The notes: generated by a model from the sequence alone, not told the origin. A stretch of DNA of 55,599 nt from Verrucomicrobiota bacterium (GCA_024277195.1 JAJRVS010000126.1:1-55599); one strand, 5' to 3'; positions 21,792 through 30,418 are shown, counted from the first letter of the stretch. Numbers and translations are program-made.

Positions 21792-21842
21792 AGTTGATTG
21801 ATATAGCGCTTGAACGAGCGCCTGACTTCGTGAAAGAAGATA

Positions 21843-21879
21843 ACAAAGGACGCTTGTAAAAGCGTCCTTTGTTGTTTTT
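21843..21879 (+). terminator. Rho-independent terminator after ssb
   Basis: A 13-bp perfect stem pairs ACAAAGGACGCTT (21843-21855) with AAGCGTCCTTTGT (21860-21872) around a GTAA loop, followed by TGTTTTT. It is the strongest hairpin in the window and closes the ribosomal-protein/ssb unit. Its symmetry lets it also stop transcription from the opposite side. Confidence 0.9.
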
Positions 21880-21994
21880 GAGGTTTATGGTGATGTTCAA
21901 GTGGTGTTTTTTTCAGACTCAGGTTGTGAGGCGAAATAATAGTGGTTGGAAATCCATTTTCGGTAGTGGGTCAGTGGTGGGAATATTTGTTAAC

Positions 21995-22021
21995 CACTGA
22001 TTCACACTGATGGGCACTGAT
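21995..22021. repeat. Three CACTGAT units with 10-base period
   Basis: CACTGAT occurs at 21995, 22005 and 22015, exactly 10 bases apart. The phrasing (AACCACTGATTCACACTGAT...) resembles short degenerate intergenic repeats seen in many environmental bacterial genomes. No gene is visible between the ssb terminator and 22079. Confidence 0.5.
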
Positions 22022-22078
22022 ATGGAGAAATGGGTGGTGGAGGGAAGGTGGGATTTGAAAGGGTAGTTGGGGTAAGGA

Positions 22079-22762
22079 TCAAATCCAGTCGAGTTGATCT
22101 TCTCGTTTACGGTAAAAGATGCCCAGCATTCTGCCATTGGCCATTAGCGTGAACATTCCTATGAGGGCCATGCTCAGAGTGCCTGCAATGAAGTGGCCAT
22201 CAAGAAGTGTGGAGGTGAAAAGCTGTATGGCGTAGAGTAGTGCCAGAAGCATAACGGCGATCCAGTAGGTGAAGCCTCCTCGGAAGATCGCTGGAATGAC
22301 AATGTGGGGGCTCAGGCCCACCAGGCTGCCGAGAATGACGACGGCCAGCATAGCCATGGGGAAATAGATGATTCCGAAAGCAAGCAAGCCGTAGTAGGCG
22401 GGAAGGTTGTTCAAGGGGTCATCGATCAGCAGCAGGTAGGCTACCCATGGGGCGAAGGAGGCGATGGCGACAGCTACTACGTGCAGCAGAGGTTCCATTA
22501 CGTCTTCGACGAAGCTGGTGATTTCGGGGAAATCGGGAGCTTCCTCGTCACCTACAGCAGAGCTGTTGATTATATCGAAATAGACGGCGCAAAAATATCC
22601 GGATAAAATTATACCTGCCATGAATCCAAGGGTGGGTGCAAATGAAACGATGTCAGATACGACAGAAAGAATCGCCCCGATGATGAGAATGTATTTTCCG
22701 TTACCGCGAAAAGGGTAAGTTGTGATGTCGAGAATGATCTTCATATGCTGCCAGTATCCCAT
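22079..22762 (-). CDS. Polytopic membrane protein, DUF4013-like
   Basis: A 227-residue inner-membrane protein. After a short amphipathic N-terminus (MKIILDITTYPFRGNGKYI) come about six hydrophobic stretches. FMAGIILSGYFCAVYFDIINSSA and the following acidic loop GDEEAPDFPEITSFVEDVMEP recall the DUF4013 pattern of small-residue membrane proteins with a repeated glycerol-channel-like look. No catalytic motif is visible. An ATG 18 bases inside (22744) may be the real start. It is monocistronic, placed tail-to-tail with ssb, and upstream of it lies a 16-base imperfect direct repeat (ATTTATAGCC..TCAT) around 22798-22830. Confidence 0.7.
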   Translation of the reverse strand: MGYWQHMKIILDITTYPFRGNGKYILIIGAILSVVSDIVSFAPTLGFMAGIILSGYFCAVYFDIINSSAVGDEEAPDFPEITSFVEDVMEPLLHVVAVAIASFAPWVAYLLLIDDPLNNLPAYYGLLAFGIIYFPMAMLAVVILGSLVGLSPHIVIPAIFRGGFTYWIAVMLLALLYAIQLFTSTLLDGHFIAGTLSMALIGMFTLMANGRMLGIFYRKREDQLDWI

Positions 22763-22850
22763 GAGGGTCCAGCGGCGACGATTACAAATTTAGCGTAAAT
22801 TTATAGCCATTCATATTTATAGCCGCTCATTAGGGGAGCAGTGACTGCCA

Positions 22851-23404
22851 TTAAAATTGACCCAGCGAGGCAAAATCTTTTGTTAACAAAGGATCTTTGC
22901 GTAAGCCGTTCAGCAGATTGTGGACGCTTTGTTTTTCGGGCATTTCGAAGCGGCGAAAGGGTTCCGCCATGCGGGCGCTGCAGATGCCGGCTATGTCCAG
23001 TGCACACTTGATGCCTTTGATTCCTGCCGAAGCGTGTTGGCCGATAGTGTAAAGCTGTTGCAAGCGGATCATGGTTTTTTGCATCTGTTGAACGCCGTCG
23101 AGATCGCCGCTCGCGGCAGCTTGGTAGGCGGCGGAGAAAAACCGGGGAAAAAGATTGGCTCCTCCGGTGACGCCGCCGTCGCCACCGCTGAGAACGGAGT
23201 CCATCATAAGTAATTCAGACCCCATCAATACGCTCCACTTGCCTGCCTGGTGGGCGATGTTTTCAATATGATGAGAAGTAGCTCATATCACCTGAACTGT
23301 CTTTCAAACCGACGATGCCTTGGTTGTCGAGCAACTGTTCAACCACACGGGATCCAATCTGCACCTTGGTCAGTGGCGGCATGTTGTAGAGCATGCAGGG
23401 TAGG
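22851..23404 (-). pseudogene. Truncated, frameshifted copy of the dihydrodipicolinate-synthase-family gene
   Basis: This is a partial duplicate of the gene at 29465-30418. It covers about the last 180 codons, starting abruptly at the codons of the active-site LPCMLYNMPPL segment (about 23404). One extra base near 23275 shifts the frame just after SSGDMSYF. After that, residues MGSELLMMDSVLSG onward read intact to TAA at 22851. By eye the middle 250 bases are almost identical to the intact copy, while the 3' third differs more. The N-terminal barrel half with the first phosphate/substrate motifs is missing, so no active enzyme is possible. Confidence 0.9.
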
Positions 23405-23728
23405 GGGGGCTCTATTCGGGGGGGAAGCTTTCGACGTGATCGAATTAAGCAAAGACAATCTTGAGACGGCCTTCCACACCTTGCGTGTTCGTGCCAACCG
23501 GCAAAAAATCAAAGTCAACAATCGATGAATGAATTCAACGTCGGAGTGGTAGGCTCCAGTGCGACAAGTGAATTAGAATCGGCGGAAAAGGCGGATCCAA
23601 ATAGGGTAAGATCAGTGAATTAACCATGTGAACGCAAGTCTATGAAATTTGGTATCGGAATGTCGCCTGCCCCCAGATCCCTAGGACCTGGAAGGTAGAT
23701 TTATATTGCGCCTTGTGTGCCCTGAAGT
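23405..23728 (+). other. Gene-poor junction with a short unrecognised coding remnant
   Basis: The homology of the pseudogene copy stops at a G-rich junction (about 23401-23424). Directly after it, one + strand frame (about 23418-23528) encodes a plausible protein tail containing FDVIELSKDNLETAFHTLRV and ending RQKIKVNNR before a TGA. It has no start of its own and reads like the last 35 residues of a gene whose front was lost in the rearrangement. I do not recognise it. The remaining 200 bases to the ATPase gene show nothing. Confidence 0.35.
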
Positions 23729-24898
23729 TCAACCTTTGATCTCGTCGCACAGCTCCGGCAAGCGTTCGATTCCAACCCCTTCGATCCGGTCATCCATCTG
23801 ATGCCGGGTATCGCCAGGGAAAATGACGTAGAGCTTTTCCAATTTGAGATCGTCACGTCCCGCTTTCATCGCGTCCGTCAATCGTGGCGCATCGCCTGAT
23901 TTGAATTCGAATCCGAGTCGGCGTCCCGGTAATTCGGTGACAAGATCCACTTCCGTTCCACCTTGGACCGAGTAGCGGAAACAGTGCTCTTCACGGATTT
24001 CGGCTAGCCGAACAATCTCATCGATACAAAACGCCTCCCATGAAAACCCACGGCGAGGATGTGATTCGAGATGTGATTCTTCAGAAACTCGCAGCAGGCT
24101 ATGAAGGATTCCAGTGTCGCGGATCAGCAGGGTGGAACTCCGGCGAATCCGCTTCCTGACATTGGTTTCCAGCGGCTGAAGTTCTCTGATAATGTAGGCT
24201 CTCTTGAGAGTCTCGATATAGTTTTGAACGGTCTTGTAGCTGATGTCGAGGATTCCCGCTGCTGCTGAGTGATTCCACGCCTGCCCCGTGGAGTCAGCAA
24301 CCAGATCGAGTAATTTCCGGATTAGGGCCGGAGGCAAATCCGCGTGGCTCCAGATACGCAGATCTCGGCCAATTAAGGCGCTGAGGTAGTTCTCCCGCCA
24401 CTCGTAGGCAAGCGCGTCATCTGGTGCGAGAAAAGAAGGTGGATGCCCTCCCCTGAGCCAGAGTGATTTCCAATTCTCGGTACCGGTTTCGCGAAGATCG
24501 AAGCCGCCAATCTCGATAATCGCTGCTCGTCCAGCCAAACTTTCAGACACGGATTCCAGAAGCGTTGGTGCCACGCTGCCCGTCACGATGAAACGCGCCG
24601 GATGATCTGGGCGATCGGCCAGCACGCGCAGAGTCTTGAACAAAGCAGGCAATTCCTGAGCTTCATCAATCACGATCCACCCAGATAGTTCACCTAGAAC
24701 CGAAATGGGATTGTCGGTAAGGCGCACCAAATCTAGGGATCGTTCGAGATCAAAATAATGATCAGGTGAGCTCGCTAGGCCTCGACACAACTCAGTTTTA
24801 CCAGTCTGGCGTGCGCCCAGAATAACGGTAATCGGATAGCGATTGGACGCATCGTGCAGGCGAGCGAGAAGACGGGTTCTTTCGATATGAGGAAACAT
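23729..24898 (-). CDS. AAA_14/DUF4143 family ATPase
   Basis: A 389-residue P-loop protein of the AAA_14-DUF4143 type (COG1373-like). Walker A is GARQTGKT (residues 28-35), Walker B WIVIDEAQE (about 74-82) and sensor I FIVTGS. A winged-helix-like middle part with AAGILDISYKTVQNYIETLKRAYII follows. The C-terminal DUF4143 domain has the nuclease-like EVDLVTELPGRRLGFEFKSG (D...E-x-K arrangement of PD-(D/E)XK folds, possibly inactive). Members are scattered in bacteria and archaea, often horizontally moved, with unknown function. Its ATG lies at the left end of the perfect inverted repeat it shares with the divergent giant gene. Confidence 0.9.
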   Translation of the reverse strand: MFPHIERTRLLARLHDASNRYPITVILGARQTGKTELCRGLASSPDHYFDLERSLDLVRLTDNPISVLGELSGWIVIDEAQELPALFKTLRVLADRPDHPARFIVTGSVAPTLLESVSESLAGRAAIIEIGGFDLRETGTENWKSLWLRGGHPPSFLAPDDALAYEWRENYLSALIGRDLRIWSHADLPPALIRKLLDLVADSTGQAWNHSAAAGILDISYKTVQNYIETLKRAYIIRELQPLETNVRKRIRRSSTLLIRDTGILHSLLRVSEESHLESHPRRGFSWEAFCIDEIVRLAEIREEHCFRYSVQGGTEVDLVTELPGRRLGFEFKSGDAPRLTDAMKAGRDDLKLEKLYVIFPGDTRHQMDDRIEGVGIERLPELCDEIKG

Positions 24899-24938
24899 GC
24901 TTGCAAAATAGAGTCATTACCTCTATTTTGCAAGCATG
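24896..24938. promoter_or_regulatory. Perfect inverted repeat spanning two divergent start codons; symmetric bidirectional promoter
   Basis: CATGCTTGCAAAATAGAG (24896-24913) and CTCTATTTTGCAAGCATG (24921-24938) are perfect 18-bp arms around a 7-base spacer. The outer three bases of each arm are the ATG start codons of the two divergent genes. Rightward, TTGCAA (24901-24906), 17 bases, then TATTTT (24924-24929) gives a plausible -35/-10 pair ending 6 bases before the ATG, so the mRNA would be leaderless. By symmetry the same holds leftward. The two promoters overlap fully, so polymerases should exclude each other, and a dimeric repressor could cover both. Promoter function is inferred; the palindrome is directly seen. 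Confidence 0.85.
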
Positions 24939-27900
24939 TCTCGAATACCTTTCGATTCTCTCCAGTTTAGTGCGGCCGATCTCGAAGAATTTGTAGTTCG
25001 ATTTCTTAGTGCAGGAATCTCTCTGCCAGTCGATGGCCCGAATGGCGTAGAAGAAAGAGTAGTCAAATACGCCTTTCGAGATAACAAAACAGGTGGTTCT
25101 TCCGATCAAGGAGTGGATGTCATCGCGAAAATGGAAGGTGGCGAAACGTGGGGATTCCAGTGCAAGTTGAAAACCCATGGTCAGAGCCAGAGATGGACAA
25201 TGAGCGAAAGTGAGGAAGTGATTTCAGAGGCAACCTACCCAGCCGACCATTACTTTCTAGTCGTCATTGCACCCAAAGGACAGCAGCGTGAGGCGAGAGA
25301 ATACATCGAATCGAGAGGAAACTGGACCTTTTGGGATGCTGACGTCCTTTCCTCCCTGTTCTTCACTCGGCTTCGCGAAGAAACCGGTATTCCGATATTG
25401 GAAGAGTTTTTCGATTCGGAAACAGCGCAGCACTGCTATGGGCTTCTTACCGATGAAGTTTTGATATCCGAAAACCGTTTTTTTCAGCCCCTTCTTAAAG
25501 AAACTCGGTCTTTTAATCATCTGGCTCCGATTGCAGGCTCTAGAGAGGCGGTAGATGCTCTTCACGATTTTGTCGATCGCGGTTCGAAAAAGGTGATGCT
25601 TGTGAGCGGTCGTGGAGGATTGGGTAAATCGCGAATGCTCCGTGAATTTTCACAAGAGTTTTCCGAGAAGCATCCAAATCGAATTCTCCGTTTCGTCAAT
25701 GCGTCCGCCCGAGGCGATACTGAGAAATCATTGGGCTATTTGTTGAAAAAAAAATTGGTCGTCGTTCATGAGGATGCACACCGCATCGAGACACTTCGTC
25801 CCACAGTCCTCGCGGCGATCGCCTCGGATAAGGACGCGCAGCTGATCATGACCGTTCGACCTCAGGGAGTCGAAGCTGTTCGTCAGGCCTTGCATCAATT
25901 CGGAATCGGCGCCGAGGAAATTGAGCCTCTCGCGGTGGTGAAATCTCTCAGTCAATCTGATATGATCAGATTGGCGAAGTCTGTTCTTGGGCGAAATCCG
26001 CGCATCGAACCGCGTGTGCTCGCAGGCTGGTCGGACCGGTCGCCTCTGATTTGCGTGGTGGGAGGCAATCTGATTCGCAATCAATCATTAGATCCTCAAG
26101 ATATTCCGAATTCGCAAATTTTTCATGTTGAAGTCTTCGATCGTTTCGAACATCAAAACCTGGAATCTCTGGCTCGTGATAATCCTGAACATCGGGAATT
26201 CCTCAAGCGACTGTTGCGGACTCTCGCCATTCTAGCTCCGTTCCCAGCCAAACGAGAAAGCGAAGATATCCTCTCAAAATTCTTGAGCATCCGCGGTTCT
26301 CGTTTGGAAACGGCACTTGCAGAACTCGAAATCGCGGAACTCATCACAAAGACCGAAAAAGGTTGGAGGGTCGGCCCTGATCTTTTCGCTGATCATCTCG
26401 TCTTCCGGTCCTGCTTCACCGGTGATCACACTTCGGTTTTTCTTGAGGAGATAGTGGAAGCCTTTGGGAAGACACATTTTGCTACGATGCTCCGAAATCT
26501 TTCTGAGGCTGAATGGCGAGCGCGAGCAGAAAATCAGGAGATGGTTGATTTGACAACAACGCTTTGGAATAACTTCGAAAGCACGTTCAGAAAGAGTTCG
26601 TTTTGGGATCGTAGAGAGATGCTCGCAGTGTGGAGCACCTTCAGCGTTTTTGTTCCGGAAAAATCCCTCGAATTGGCAACGTTGGCGATGATACTGGATG
26701 AAGCACCGGAGGACGAGACGGCCGAACTTCTTTCATTATCGATCTCGACGCATCGAGATGTCGTAGAATTGATACCTGCGATGCTCAAACCCATCGGGAT
26801 TTATCATCTTGATCTTCAATTTCAAGTGTTTGATTTTCTAGGTCGCCTAGGGCGTAACTGGTCGCCGCAGATCGAGTATCAACCGCGTGAAGATGACAGC
26901 CATCCATGGTCCGCAATTGGAAAAGCCGCCAGCTTCGCGATCGATCAGCCGATGGATTCCGTCAGTGGGGTAGTTCTCTGGCTGAAATCAAGGCTGACGG
27001 AAGATTGGATGACGGAATTGATCGACCGCCGCTGCGGTTTTCTCTCGGTTGTGCTGAGCTCGATTTTCAAACGAACGATTGAACGCACTTACCGCGAAGG
27101 GAGGAGTTTCATATTTCAAACCATTCCGCTTAGTGTAGCTAGTACCGCCCCGATGCGAGATGCTGCATTTCAACTGATCGAGAGAGACCTGATACCCCGA
27201 TCTGAAATCGTCACGCTTAATGTAATCCCGATTCTCAACGAAACAGCAGCATTCTACGGTGTCGGACCCGACACGAAGGCGAATCGCGAAGAATGGAAGC
27301 CTGTCCGACTTCACGCGATCAACCTTTTCGCACGATGCGTCGAATGTTGGGACACGGTATTCGTCAAGTTTTCTGTATTGCAATCGCTATCGAGTCGCGC
27401 ATCCTTCGAAAAAGATGGAGAGATTGTAGCTGCAGTGAAAAAGGTGCTTGCTGCGATTCCCCGCGACTTAGCGTTTCAGGTCGCATTAGTCACTCTAGGC
27501 AATGGAGAGGAATTTCAATTTGAGGATAATCTCGATGATGAACAAGACTACGAAAAATCATGGGAAAATTGGAAGAACCTTTCCCCCAAAGTAGGGATAG
27601 CTTTGCGCGAAATGTATCCGGATGAGTCAGGTCTTTTTACATTTCTCAACACTTTCGAGAACGATGCGCGACAACGCGGGTTCGTTCCGAATTGGGGGCA
27701 CTTACTCGACGCTATCATCGAAAATGAAAACGAAATCGGCCTGGTTTGGATCGACAGAGTCCTCAAAGGCTCTGATTCTTTTCTCGATAGCCATATCGGA
27801 CTTTTGATTCAGTGCATCTCCGATACAGATGATGCCCAACAAGACCACCTATTTGCTTCAGCGCTGCAGAGTTCAAAAATTGATGTCAGAGCATCAGTGC

Positions 27901-28910
27901 TGAGGTTCCTTTCCTGGCAAAAAGAAGAAGTAGGCAAAGAGACCGCAAAATTATTTCGTAAGCTGCTTTCATCGTCAGACCGAAGCGCACGCGAGCCTGC
28001 CCTGAACACGCTATGCGAAGCTATCTCATCTGGAGCGCCGTGGGCTTTGGGGTTTCTTCCTGTGGTTCCTGTTCAGGATCTCGCTGATTCAGAATTTTTG
28101 AAATTGATCGACACCTTAACCAAGGCGATCCGCTATGAACGAATGGAGGTGAGTCTTGCTCAACTATCTCCGCTCCTGACCAAACTAGAAACGATCAATC
28201 AGCTCTACAGCGAACCTTTTCCAGAATTTCTTTCGATCCTGTCTAAACTCTCACCGATTACTGTTTTTGATCTGATTTGCAAACGAATCGAGCGATTCGA
28301 AAAGATGGATCAGGAGGAAGAGGCGGGCTCTTTCAATCCAGTCGTGAAGGAGTTGGAACCTTGGCGAATTTGGGGGCTGGAAAAAGAGAATGATTTCCCC
28401 AAAATGGCGGAGCTGCTGATTACTCAAATTCGAACCACAGCGAACTTGCGAGTGTCGCAGTATTGGGGGAATTTATTTCAGGCAGCCGTACTGATGAATG
28501 AGAGTAATCTTGGCATCGATGCGCTTCGGAATTGGCTGGTTGAATGCAGCGACCCCAAAGAACTTCTGGAAATCGCTAAACTATTCAATATACGGGGCAC
28601 CGGCTTGGTCTTTGTCTATTCGGAGTTCACCAAAGAAATTCTCGAGAAGACAGCCCGCGAATTTTCTGCGAAAGAAAAATCGATTCGTTCTGCTCTGCTG
28701 CCAGATCCGGGAATGCGTGGCTATAGTAATGGAGAGTTGGATTCAGAGCACGCGTGGGTCCGGGATGAAGCCTTAAAAGCGGTTGCCGCGCACAGCAACG
28801 ATCCGGTTCTAGGTCCATTTTTCGGCTTTGTTGTTGATCGGGAGCGTAAGGATCAGGAATGGCATAGAGAAGATTACCAGAATCAGATGTTGGAAGTAGG
28901 CTTAATCTGA
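24936..28910 (+). CDS. Mrr-like nuclease-STAND NTPase fusion, candidate Avs-type anti-phage protein
   Basis: The 1324-residue protein has three parts. Residues about 10-160 resemble Mrr-type PD-(D/E)XK endonucleases: an N-terminal EEFVVRFL helix, D57/D61 in SDQGVDVIA, and QCK at 75-77 after the WGF strand. Residues about 195-500 form a P-loop NTPase of STAND type: Walker A GRGGLGKS (225-232), Walker B VVVHED (275-280), an arginine sensor in IMTVRP, and a winged-helix-like AELEIAELI...GWRVGPDLFADHL. The C-terminal ~820 residues are helical, with Trp/Leu-rich repeated-helix character, as in sensor regions. This order matches Avs-like STAND defence proteins (Avs4 also carries an Mrr-type nuclease), but assignment to a known Avs type is not claimed. 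No antitoxin or partner other than the divergent ATPase is adjacent. Confidence 0.85.
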   Translation: MSRIPFDSLQFSAADLEEFVVRFLSAGISLPVDGPNGVEERVVKYAFRDNKTGGSSDQGVDVIAKMEGGETWGFQCKLKTHGQSQRWTMSESEEVISEATYPADHYFLVVIAPKGQQREAREYIESRGNWTFWDADVLSSLFFTRLREETGIPILEEFFDSETAQHCYGLLTDEVLISENRFFQPLLKETRSFNHLAPIAGSREAVDALHDFVDRGSKKVMLVSGRGGLGKSRMLREFSQEFSEKHPNRILRFVNASARGDTEKSLGYLLKKKLVVVHEDAHRIETLRPTVLAAIASDKDAQLIMTVRPQGVEAVRQALHQFGIGAEEIEPLAVVKSLSQSDMIRLAKSVLGRNPRIEPRVLAGWSDRSPLICVVGGNLIRNQSLDPQDIPNSQIFHVEVFDRFEHQNLESLARDNPEHREFLKRLLRTLAILAPFPAKRESEDILSKFLSIRGSRLETALAELEIAELITKTEKGWRVGPDLFADHLVFRSCFTGDHTSVFLEEIVEAFGKTHFATMLRNLSEAEWRARAENQEMVDLTTTLWNNFESTFRKSSFWDRREMLAVWSTFSVFVPEKSLELATLAMILDEAPEDETAELLSLSISTHRDVVELIPAMLKPIGIYHLDLQFQVFDFLGRLGRNWSPQIEYQPREDDSHPWSAIGKAASFAIDQPMDSVSGVVLWLKSRLTEDWMTELIDRRCGFLSVVLSSIFKRTIERTYREGRSFIFQTIPLSVASTAPMRDAAFQLIERDLIPRSEIVTLNVIPILNETAAFYGVGPDTKANREEWKPVRLHAINLFARCVECWDTVFVKFSVLQSLSSRASFEKDGEIVAAVKKVLAAIPRDLAFQVALVTLGNGEEFQFEDNLDDEQDYEKSWENWKNLSPKVGIALREMYPDESGLFTFLNTFENDARQRGFVPNWGHLLDAIIENENEIGLVWIDRVLKGSDSFLDSHIGLLIQCISDTDDAQQDHLFASALQSSKIDVRASVLRFLSWQKEEVGKETAKLFRKLLSSSDRSAREPALNTLCEAISSGAPWALGFLPVVPVQDLADSEFLKLIDTLTKAIRYERMEVSLAQLSPLLTKLETINQLYSEPFPEFLSILSKLSPITVFDLICKRIERFEKMDQEEEAGSFNPVVKELEPWRIWGLEKENDFPKMAELLITQIRTTANLRVSQYWGNLFQAAVLMNESNLGIDALRNWLVECSDPKELLEIAKLFNIRGTGLVFVYSEFTKEILEKTAREFSAKEKSIRSALLPDPGMRGYSNGELDSEHAWVRDEALKAVAAHSNDPVLGPFFGFVVDRERKDQEWHREDYQNQMLEVGLI

Positions 28911-29128
28911 GTACGGCTGGGGAAGGTAAGATTTCAAGACAAACTCCCCCAAATCCTCGGCTACCTCTTCTTTTAGAATGGTTTCGTTGAACTTTCACAC
29001 GTCCCGAGAAATTCCATTAAATAATCGAGCCTCTATTCAGGTAGTTATTCTTGGTACAATTCCCGCCACGGTCACAAACATTCACCTTCGGTCTCCAGGT
29101 ATGCTATTCTCCCAAGTTCTTCGACATT

Positions 29129-29391
29129 ATGAAAATCACTAACAAAACAAAAAAGCCTCTCAGTGTTCCTCTTCCAGTCGGGAAGAAACTCTTTTGAGCC
29201 CGGGAAAGTCGGGACAGGTCACCCCGACGGCAGCCACACGCCCTGCAGTCGTTAAGCTGGTTGAAGCTGGAGAACTTGAAATCTCTGAAGAAGATGCCAA
29301 GCGACAGGGCGGGAGTAGTTCTGGCGGCGGCGTTGCCGATGCCTCAGGTCACGGGGGATCCGGGGCCATGCGGCAGTCCGGGGACAAATAA
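29129..29391 (+). pseudogene. Small unknown gene with a -1 frameshift
   Basis: ATG 29129 opens MKITNKTKKPLSVPLPVGKK and hits TGA at 29195. If one T of CTCTTTTGAG is read twice (or is missing from the sequence), the frame continues as LSPGKSGQVTPTAATRPAVV... to TAA at 29391, giving about 87 residues. The two halves fit together as one small protein of the pattern PL.VPLP.GK.L.L.PGKSGQ..P.A, which I have seen in small hypothetical proteins of accessory regions, but I cannot name a function. The tail is Gly/Ser-rich. The change could be a sequence error, true decay, or a programmed slip on TTTT. It lies between the STAND gene and the lyase gene. Confidence 0.5.
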
Positions 29392-29464
29392 GTTTTAGCT
29401 ATTACGAAAACAGGGGAGAAGGCAGTAGCCAATCGGGGAGGCGTGCTTCGCGGAGTGTTCTGGA

Positions 29465-30418
29465 TTAGCTGCTTGCAAGCGCGGCGAAATCGGCCGCTAA
29501 CAGTGGATCCTGGTGCAGGGTATCGAGCAGAGCGGCGACGGCTTGTTTTTCAGGTTTGTTGAAAGCACGAAAAGGCTCGGCAATGCGGGCGCTGCAGATG
29601 CCAAGGGTTTCTAGCGCGCATTTGATGCCCTTAATACCTGCCGATGCGTGTTGGCCAATGCTGTAGAGTTGCTGAAGATGGATCATGGTCTTCTGCATTC
29701 GGTGCACGGTTTCGAGATCACCTTTGTCAGCGGCAGACCAGGCGGCGGAGAAAAACCGGGGAAAAAGATTGGCTCCTCCGGTGACACCTCCGTCGCTACC
29801 GCTGAGAACAGAGTCCATCATAAGTAATTCAGACCCCATCAATACGCTCCACTTGCCTGCCTGATGGGCGATGTTTTCAATATGATGAAAGTAGCTCATA
29901 TCACCAGAACTGTCTTTCAAGCCGACAATGCCTTGGTTGTCGAGCAACTGTTCAACCACACGGGATCCGATCTGCACCTTGGTCAGTGGCGGCATATTGT
30001 AGAGCATGCAGGGTAGCGGAAGTTCGGCAATCAGATCATTGAGATATTCCAACAGCTCGGGCTGGCCGGGGGGGAGGTAGTAGGGAGGTGCGACCACCAC
30101 GGCATCCGCTCCACATTTGGCGGCGTGATGGGCGAGCTCCACCGACTCAATGAATGAAGTATCGGTGATACCCACCAGAATAGGAAGCCGTCCTTCGGTG
30201 AACTTGCAGCTGTGTTCGATCATTTTTCGGCGCAATGGATGACTCAGGCTGGGAGCTTCTCCGGTAGTGCCGAGAATGAACAAGCCGTGCACTCCCCCAT
30301 CGCAAAGATGATCGATCAGTTTTTTTAATCCGGGCTCGTCGAGTTGGTCTGATCCTGACAAAGGGGTGACCAGGGGAGGGATGATGCCATGGTAAGGGCG
30401 TTGCGGTGATGGCTTCAT
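29465..30418 (-). CDS. Dihydrodipicolinate synthase/N-acetylneuraminate lyase family protein
   Basis: A Class I aldolase-type TIM barrel of 317 residues. The N-terminal GIIPPLVTPL strand, GTTGEAPSLS substrate loop, PPYYLPPGQPE, the active-site Tyr region LYNMPP and the Schiff-base Lys in GIVGLKDSSGD are all present. Neighbours (sodium symporter, sialidase-domain protein, GntR regulator, MurQ-like protein) make cleavage of N-acetylneuraminate to pyruvate and ManNAc the best guess. Related sugar-acid aldolases of the family are not excluded. Its ATG overlaps the symporter stop (ATGA), so the two are coupled. A broken duplicate lies at 22851-23404 in the same orientation. Confidence 0.88.
   Translation of the reverse strand: MKPSPQRPYHGIIPPLVTPLSGSDQLDEPGLKKLIDHLCDGGVHGLFILGTTGEAPSLSHPLRRKMIEHSCKFTEGRLPILVGITDTSFIESVELAHHAAKCGADAVVVAPPYYLPPGQPELLEYLNDLIAELPLPCMLYNMPPLTKVQIGSRVVEQLLDNQGIVGLKDSSGDMSYFHHIENIAHQAGKWSVLMGSELLMMDSVLSGSDGGVTGGANLFPRFFSAAWSAADKGDLETVHRMQKTMIHLQQLYSIGQHASAGIKGIKCALETLGICSARIAEPFRAFNKPEKQAVAALLDTLHQDPLLAADFAALASS

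Follow-up and report, generated by a model that had tools for sequence, protein, structure and literature searches.

A gene pair in the window (the whole 55,599-nucleotide stretch of Verrucomicrobiota DNA analysed here) probably constitutes a two-gene anti-phage module, made up of an Avs4-like nuclease-STAND protein and a dedicated, divergently transcribed AAA_14-DUF4143 ATPase. The large protein most likely works like Avs4; what is new is its conserved ATPase partner, transcribed divergently, together with a palindrome that the two genes share. In a literature search that covered the Avs literature in part, no description of such a Mrr-STAND/ATPase pairing was found, and in the literature searched the AAA_14-DUF4143 ATPases are mentioned once, in passing. 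To our knowledge, little is known of how bacteria silence lethal STAND sensors, and a repressor-like partner with a shared palindrome makes this silencing directly testable. If the proposal is correct, the pair contains a wired-in regulator of a bacterial NLR-like protein, and it would provide a function for, and a first handle on, a large and widespread family of uncharacterised ATPases.

The large protein is encoded by a single intact open reading frame of 1324 residues (24936-28910, + strand), which is present in a single copy in the source genome. Its coordinates and frame were verified, and domain searches found both of the domains expected from the first-pass annotation, Mrr and STAND. 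The N-terminal part (residues ~10-160, 24963-25415, + strand) is a Mrr-type PD-(D/E)XK nuclease domain. The Pfam family Mrr_cat matches residues 50-141 with 22.1 bits against a cut-off of 21, and the D...QxK core typical of these nucleases is present within the Mrr_cat fold. D61 and Q75-C-K77 are invariant in 11 aligned Verrucomicrobiota homologues, as is the P-loop of the following domain in the form GG.GK. D57 had also been proposed as a catalytic residue; in the same 11 homologues this position is D or Q and so is not conserved.

The nuclease is followed by a STAND NTPase with a C-terminal helical/winged-helix part (residues ~195-500, 25518-26435, + strand), identified from structural matches and from Pfam matches to nSTAND_NTPase5 (residues 199-333, 27.9 bits, E 2.4e-6, under the cut-off of 34) and, over the same residues, to AAA_16 (E 1.2e-5, also below its cut-off). 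All five members of the protein family that were scanned match nSTAND_NTPase5, with a best E of 2.8e-8. The features by which a STAND NTPase is recognised are all present, these being a P-loop (GRGGLGKS), a Walker B motif (VVVHEDAH), an arginine motif (TVRP) and a STAND/NB-ARC-type fold, with the helical/winged-helix part after it. The VVVHED motif of the window protein has a one-residue insertion compared to the VDD of the other homologues. The remainder of the protein (residues ~501-1324, 26436-28907, + strand) is a helical solenoid and the candidate sensor, assigned from structure prediction and divergence and with a weak match to HEAT_2. The ~820 helical residues expected here agree with a prediction that is almost entirely helical as far as the model extends (to residue 1200), with one beta hairpin near 714-731. 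Pfam domains and predicted structure agree on the order of effector, NTPase and sensor that is found in Avs/STAND proteins.

AlphaFold2 was used to model residues 1-1200, from an alignment with 7 homologues, giving a mean pLDDT of 74.5. A Foldseek search of the PDB with this model placed Avs4 at the top (8dgf, E 1.4e-11, probability 1.00), followed by SAMD9 and EfAvs5 and, lower, by many HEAT/importin-type solenoids. VIA-align gave Z values of 14.3 for Apaf-1, 13.7 for EfAvs5, 12.6 for NLRC4 and 12.4 for Avs4, the last of these superimposing model residues 3-401 on Avs4 residues 3-409. The VIA-align matches mostly cover residues 171-547, so that the predicted fold of the sensor is described by the model rather than identified.

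Avs4 (AVAST type 4, present in 8dgf with the portal of phage PhiV-1) likewise consists of a nuclease, a STAND NTPase and a long helical sensor, and the arrangement characteristic of Avs4, with a Mrr-like nuclease, STAND and a C-terminal helical sensor in one chain, is also that of the window protein. With 1324 residues the window protein is shorter than the Avs4 chain of 8dgf (1534-1541 residues), and it has a conserved divergent AAA_14-DUF4143 partner, unlike Avs4, which is a single gene. Avs5 (SIR2-STAND; 9jap) resembles the window protein in having a STAND core followed by C-terminal helical repeats. However, Avs5 combines a Sir2 NADase effector with nSTAND3 (PMC12931631), where the window protein joins a Mrr nuclease to an nSTAND5-like NTPase and has the partner ATPase in addition. 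Sequence searches with the STAND protein gave no Avs match in PADLOC (E<=1) or in NCBIfam (E<=0.1), the sensitivity of both to distant Avs4 members being uncalibrated, and none among PDB sequences (E<=10). The description 'Avs-type' given in the first-pass annotation is supported for the architecture and for the likely mechanism, as judged from the model with its best Foldseek match to Avs4; it does not extend to membership of Avs4, or of another named Avs type, by sequence.

Near-full-length homologues of the STAND protein are found in Verrucomicrobiota, where their occurrence is patchy: a strong match over most of the length is present in 6 of 384 genomes of the class. A scan of genome contigs with the single sequence gave no homologue, and a search of genome contigs with a 3-row profile gave 8 loci. 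None was found in the viral contigs and phages scanned. The plasmid scan produced only three matches, one of them limited to the N-terminal 14%. The more distant homologues, on plasmids of the alphaproteobacteria Xanthobacter and Rhizobium, have nSTAND5 in common with the window protein and are 18-19% identical to it, being alignable along most of their length, with tblastn giving a significant match at residues 54-528/578. Change is fastest in the sensor: identity to the window protein is 23-38% for the Mrr domain but 16-21% for residues 801-1060, and within a closer group the corresponding values are 63% and 35%. Such divergence would be expected of a sensor under changing selection.

The partner ATPase has 389 residues and is encoded on the opposite strand (23729-24898, - strand). 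It contains both of the domains that define AAA_14-DUF4143 ATPases, with Pfam scores of 71.8 bits for AAA_14 (cut-off 27) and 105.8 bits for DUF4143 (cut-off 28.1), and it matches the PADLOC candidate PDC-S01 with E 2.4e-68. It has a Walker A motif (GARQTGKT), the sequence VIDEAQ, a winged helix at about residues 205-240 and a PD-(D/E)XK-like EVD...EFK motif. The structural model is of moderate quality (pLDDT 65), and its winged-helix region gives weak MarR-like matches. A survey of the homologues, made using tblastn and open reading frames, found a divergent adjacent ATPase at all 11 Verrucomicrobiota loci that have upstream sequence and a STAND frame unbroken where it can be read (the window, L011, L013, L009, L010, L016, L012, L015, L040, L041 and L042, where L011 is the same as L002/L007 and L016 the same as L003/L008). 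The STAND frames of L012 (interrupted by Ns) and L015 (at a contig end) can be read only in part. As some loci, such as L009, L010 and L012, form a close group, the 11 loci represent about eight independent lineages. L014 is the only Verrucomicrobiota homologue that lacks the ATPase. Its STAND frame (L014:9869-13766) is broken near codon 247-289, either as a pseudogene or by an assembly error.

The start codons of the STAND and ATPase genes are 37 bp apart, and both are inside a single inverted repeat (24892-24942), which is a candidate shared operator. Its arms of 22 nt (24892-24913 and 24921-24942) are separated by 7 nt and form 19 perfect pairs in a row, and it was equalled by none of 200 dinucleotide-preserving shuffles. 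Including the window, 6 of the 11 linked loci have a palindrome score of at least 8, compared to 9 of 169 control genes, and 3 of the 11 reach at least 10; the palindromes at the other linked loci are weaker than that of the window and are found in the same place. Upstream of unlinked ATPases of the family, the score is at least 10 in 19 of 39 cases, whereas among other genes 3 of 169 reach it (Fisher 2e-13), a frequent form at the ATPases being CCTTGAAAAT...ATTTTCAAGG. Among these unlinked ATPases (L088-L107, L115-L134) the palindrome often ends no more than about 15 nt from the start codon. A consensus scan of the shared region found no sigma-70-like promoter, and the upstream regions of the plasmid homologues contain weak inverted repeats only. 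The start-site palindrome is possibly a family-wide autoregulatory operator of the AAA_14-DUF4143 ATPases. Taken with the winged helix, the palindromes in the family suggest that the ATPase regulates its own gene and, in this case, also controls the STAND gene. Judging from the position of the repeat and the modelled fold, the ATPase would bind to the predicted operator.

A mechanism can be proposed on this basis. The C-terminal solenoid would bind a phage protein, after which the STAND NTPase would oligomerise and the N-terminal Mrr nuclease would cut DNA, such that the infection is stopped or the cell is killed; this last step is proposed from the structural match and from catalytic residues that are intact. 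The winged helix of the ATPase, bound to the palindrome between the start codons, would keep the expression of both genes low and self-limiting, and the ATPase, once released, may add a PD-(D/E)XK nuclease activity of its own. The complete scheme, in which an obligate divergent ATPase-nuclease both represses the two genes from the palindrome and joins the immune response of an Avs4-like sensor, is a reasonable possibility that we put forward tentatively.

An alternative role for the ATPase is that it acts in the response, either as a second effector nuclease or as an NTPase activator of the STAND protein, and is not mainly a repressor. In keeping with this, D318 is invariant and E-F-K is conserved in 10 of the 11 ATPases, and Foldseek gives weak matches of the ATPase to VRR_NUC and to restriction enzymes. 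However, in the ATPase of L015 the E of E-F-K is replaced by A, and the palindromes that precede unlinked ATPases of the family suggest autoregulation, so that a role mainly in the response seems doubtful.

The association of the two genes is more than one of position. The linked ATPases are 42-49% identical to that of the window, and the STAND proteins 22-30%, and for nine loci the two distance matrices are highly correlated (Pearson 0.94, Mantel p 2e-4). Against a profile made from the linked ATPases, the linked members score 603-708 bits, the nearest unlinked ATPase 559 and the remainder at most 475, although this gap is partly by construction, the linked members being themselves the source of the profile. 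Within the AAA_14-DUF4143 family, the linked members are the top-scoring set and are tied to a divergent Mrr-STAND gene. Around the nearest unlinked ATPase (G208, the one with 559 bits) there is no STAND remnant. Abundance of the ATPases was considered as the sole cause of the pairing and was rejected, as none of the 20 next-best unlinked ATPases has a STAND homologue alongside; this control carries more weight than the gap in profile scores. Viewed from the STAND side, nine more-distant Mrr/STAND matches from the same class have no neighbour resembling the partner ATPase, implying that the pairing is specific to the clade of the window protein. The Xanthobacter and Rhizobium plasmid homologues have no ATPase within about 10 kb on each side, and hence the STAND protein can in some cases do without the ATPase. 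The ATPase had been noted earlier as a neighbour of a horizontally mobile type. It does adjoin the STAND gene; it is, however, not merely mobile, and with the constant pairing, the correlated divergence and the shared palindromic region, it is a conserved and co-evolving partner rather than a chance neighbour.

These data also bear on the possibility that the STAND protein is an Avs-like sensor acting alone, and that the ATPase gene, addictive or selfish in its own right, joined it in one ancestral event and has accompanied it ever since. The ATPase belongs to a common family, most members of which have no STAND gene with them; this, like the plasmid homologues lacking an ATPase, would suit such an explanation. 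Against it, the divergent order and close spacing are retained in every one of the 11 readable cases, with STAND identities that go down to the 22-30% given above; both gene starts are built into one palindrome; and the sole partnerless case is the one with the broken STAND frame. Independent travel is thus unlikely, and a dedicated partnership remains the preferred reading.

The module is an insertion. In a genome from the same genus (G646, L113) the ssb and DHDPS genes run towards each other with a 4-bp overlap, forming an empty site. Most of the gene order found at about 8.7-31.9 kb of the window is shared by that genome, with 7.7 kb extra in the window. The inserted interval (21792-29464) lies between ssb and the DHDPS gene, and contains a membrane ORF, a DHDPS remnant and the STAND/ATPase pair. 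At its right boundary is the full-length DHDPS-family gene (29465-30418, - strand), assigned by Pfam and by comparison of the copies. The interval had been described as bounded by a duplicated gene, and this proved correct, the other copy being a frameshifted 3' partial DHDPS sequence (residues ~132-314, about 22851-23412, - strand) identified by its identity to the full copy. This remnant is a mosaic, the 5' part of about 280 nt being ~97% identical to the full copy and the 3' part ~70%. The 3' part is also distant from the same-genus orthologue. A single crossover was considered as the origin of the remnant and does not fit, the full copy being native-like throughout and the 3' part of the remnant foreign. 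Between ssb and the remnant, positions 22079-22762 encode a predicted membrane protein of 227 residues with no Pfam match.

The homologue on the Rhizobium etli plasmid pRetIE4771e is a short distance downstream of a Gabija system, with one gene between them and PtuB nearby. The order in this region (L005:4691-13663) is GajA, GajB, a HEPN-associated-domain protein and the HTH-Mrr-STAND protein. This homologue is without the ATPase and begins with an HTH domain of its own, as if the regulator had been fused to the STAND protein, and the locus reads as a defence island that includes such a fusion. In the Verrucomicrobiota flanks, PADLOC gives isolated matches (mad3, AriA/HEC-01A and AbiLi), the locus of each being unassigned; ten large neighbours of these loci gave no defence match, and in the window the module is flanked by housekeeping or metabolic genes. 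Given how little known defence the Verrucomicrobiota flanks show, the defence-island context proposed in the first-pass annotation rests mainly on the Rhizobium homologue, with its Gabija and PtuB neighbours. That the protein serves instead to regulate host physiology, as a STAND protein carrying a nuclease-like domain, is a reading that the housekeeping flanks and the little defence annotated near the Verrucomicrobiota homologues might allow; it is very improbable in view of the same-genus empty site, the patchy occurrence, the divergent sensor, the best structural match to Avs4 and the Gabija neighbour in Rhizobium.

It may be added that a further locus (L043:2558-10300) contains two giant tandem ORFs of 1233 and 1345 residues, the second of which is a distant STAND relative; they are possibly another system.
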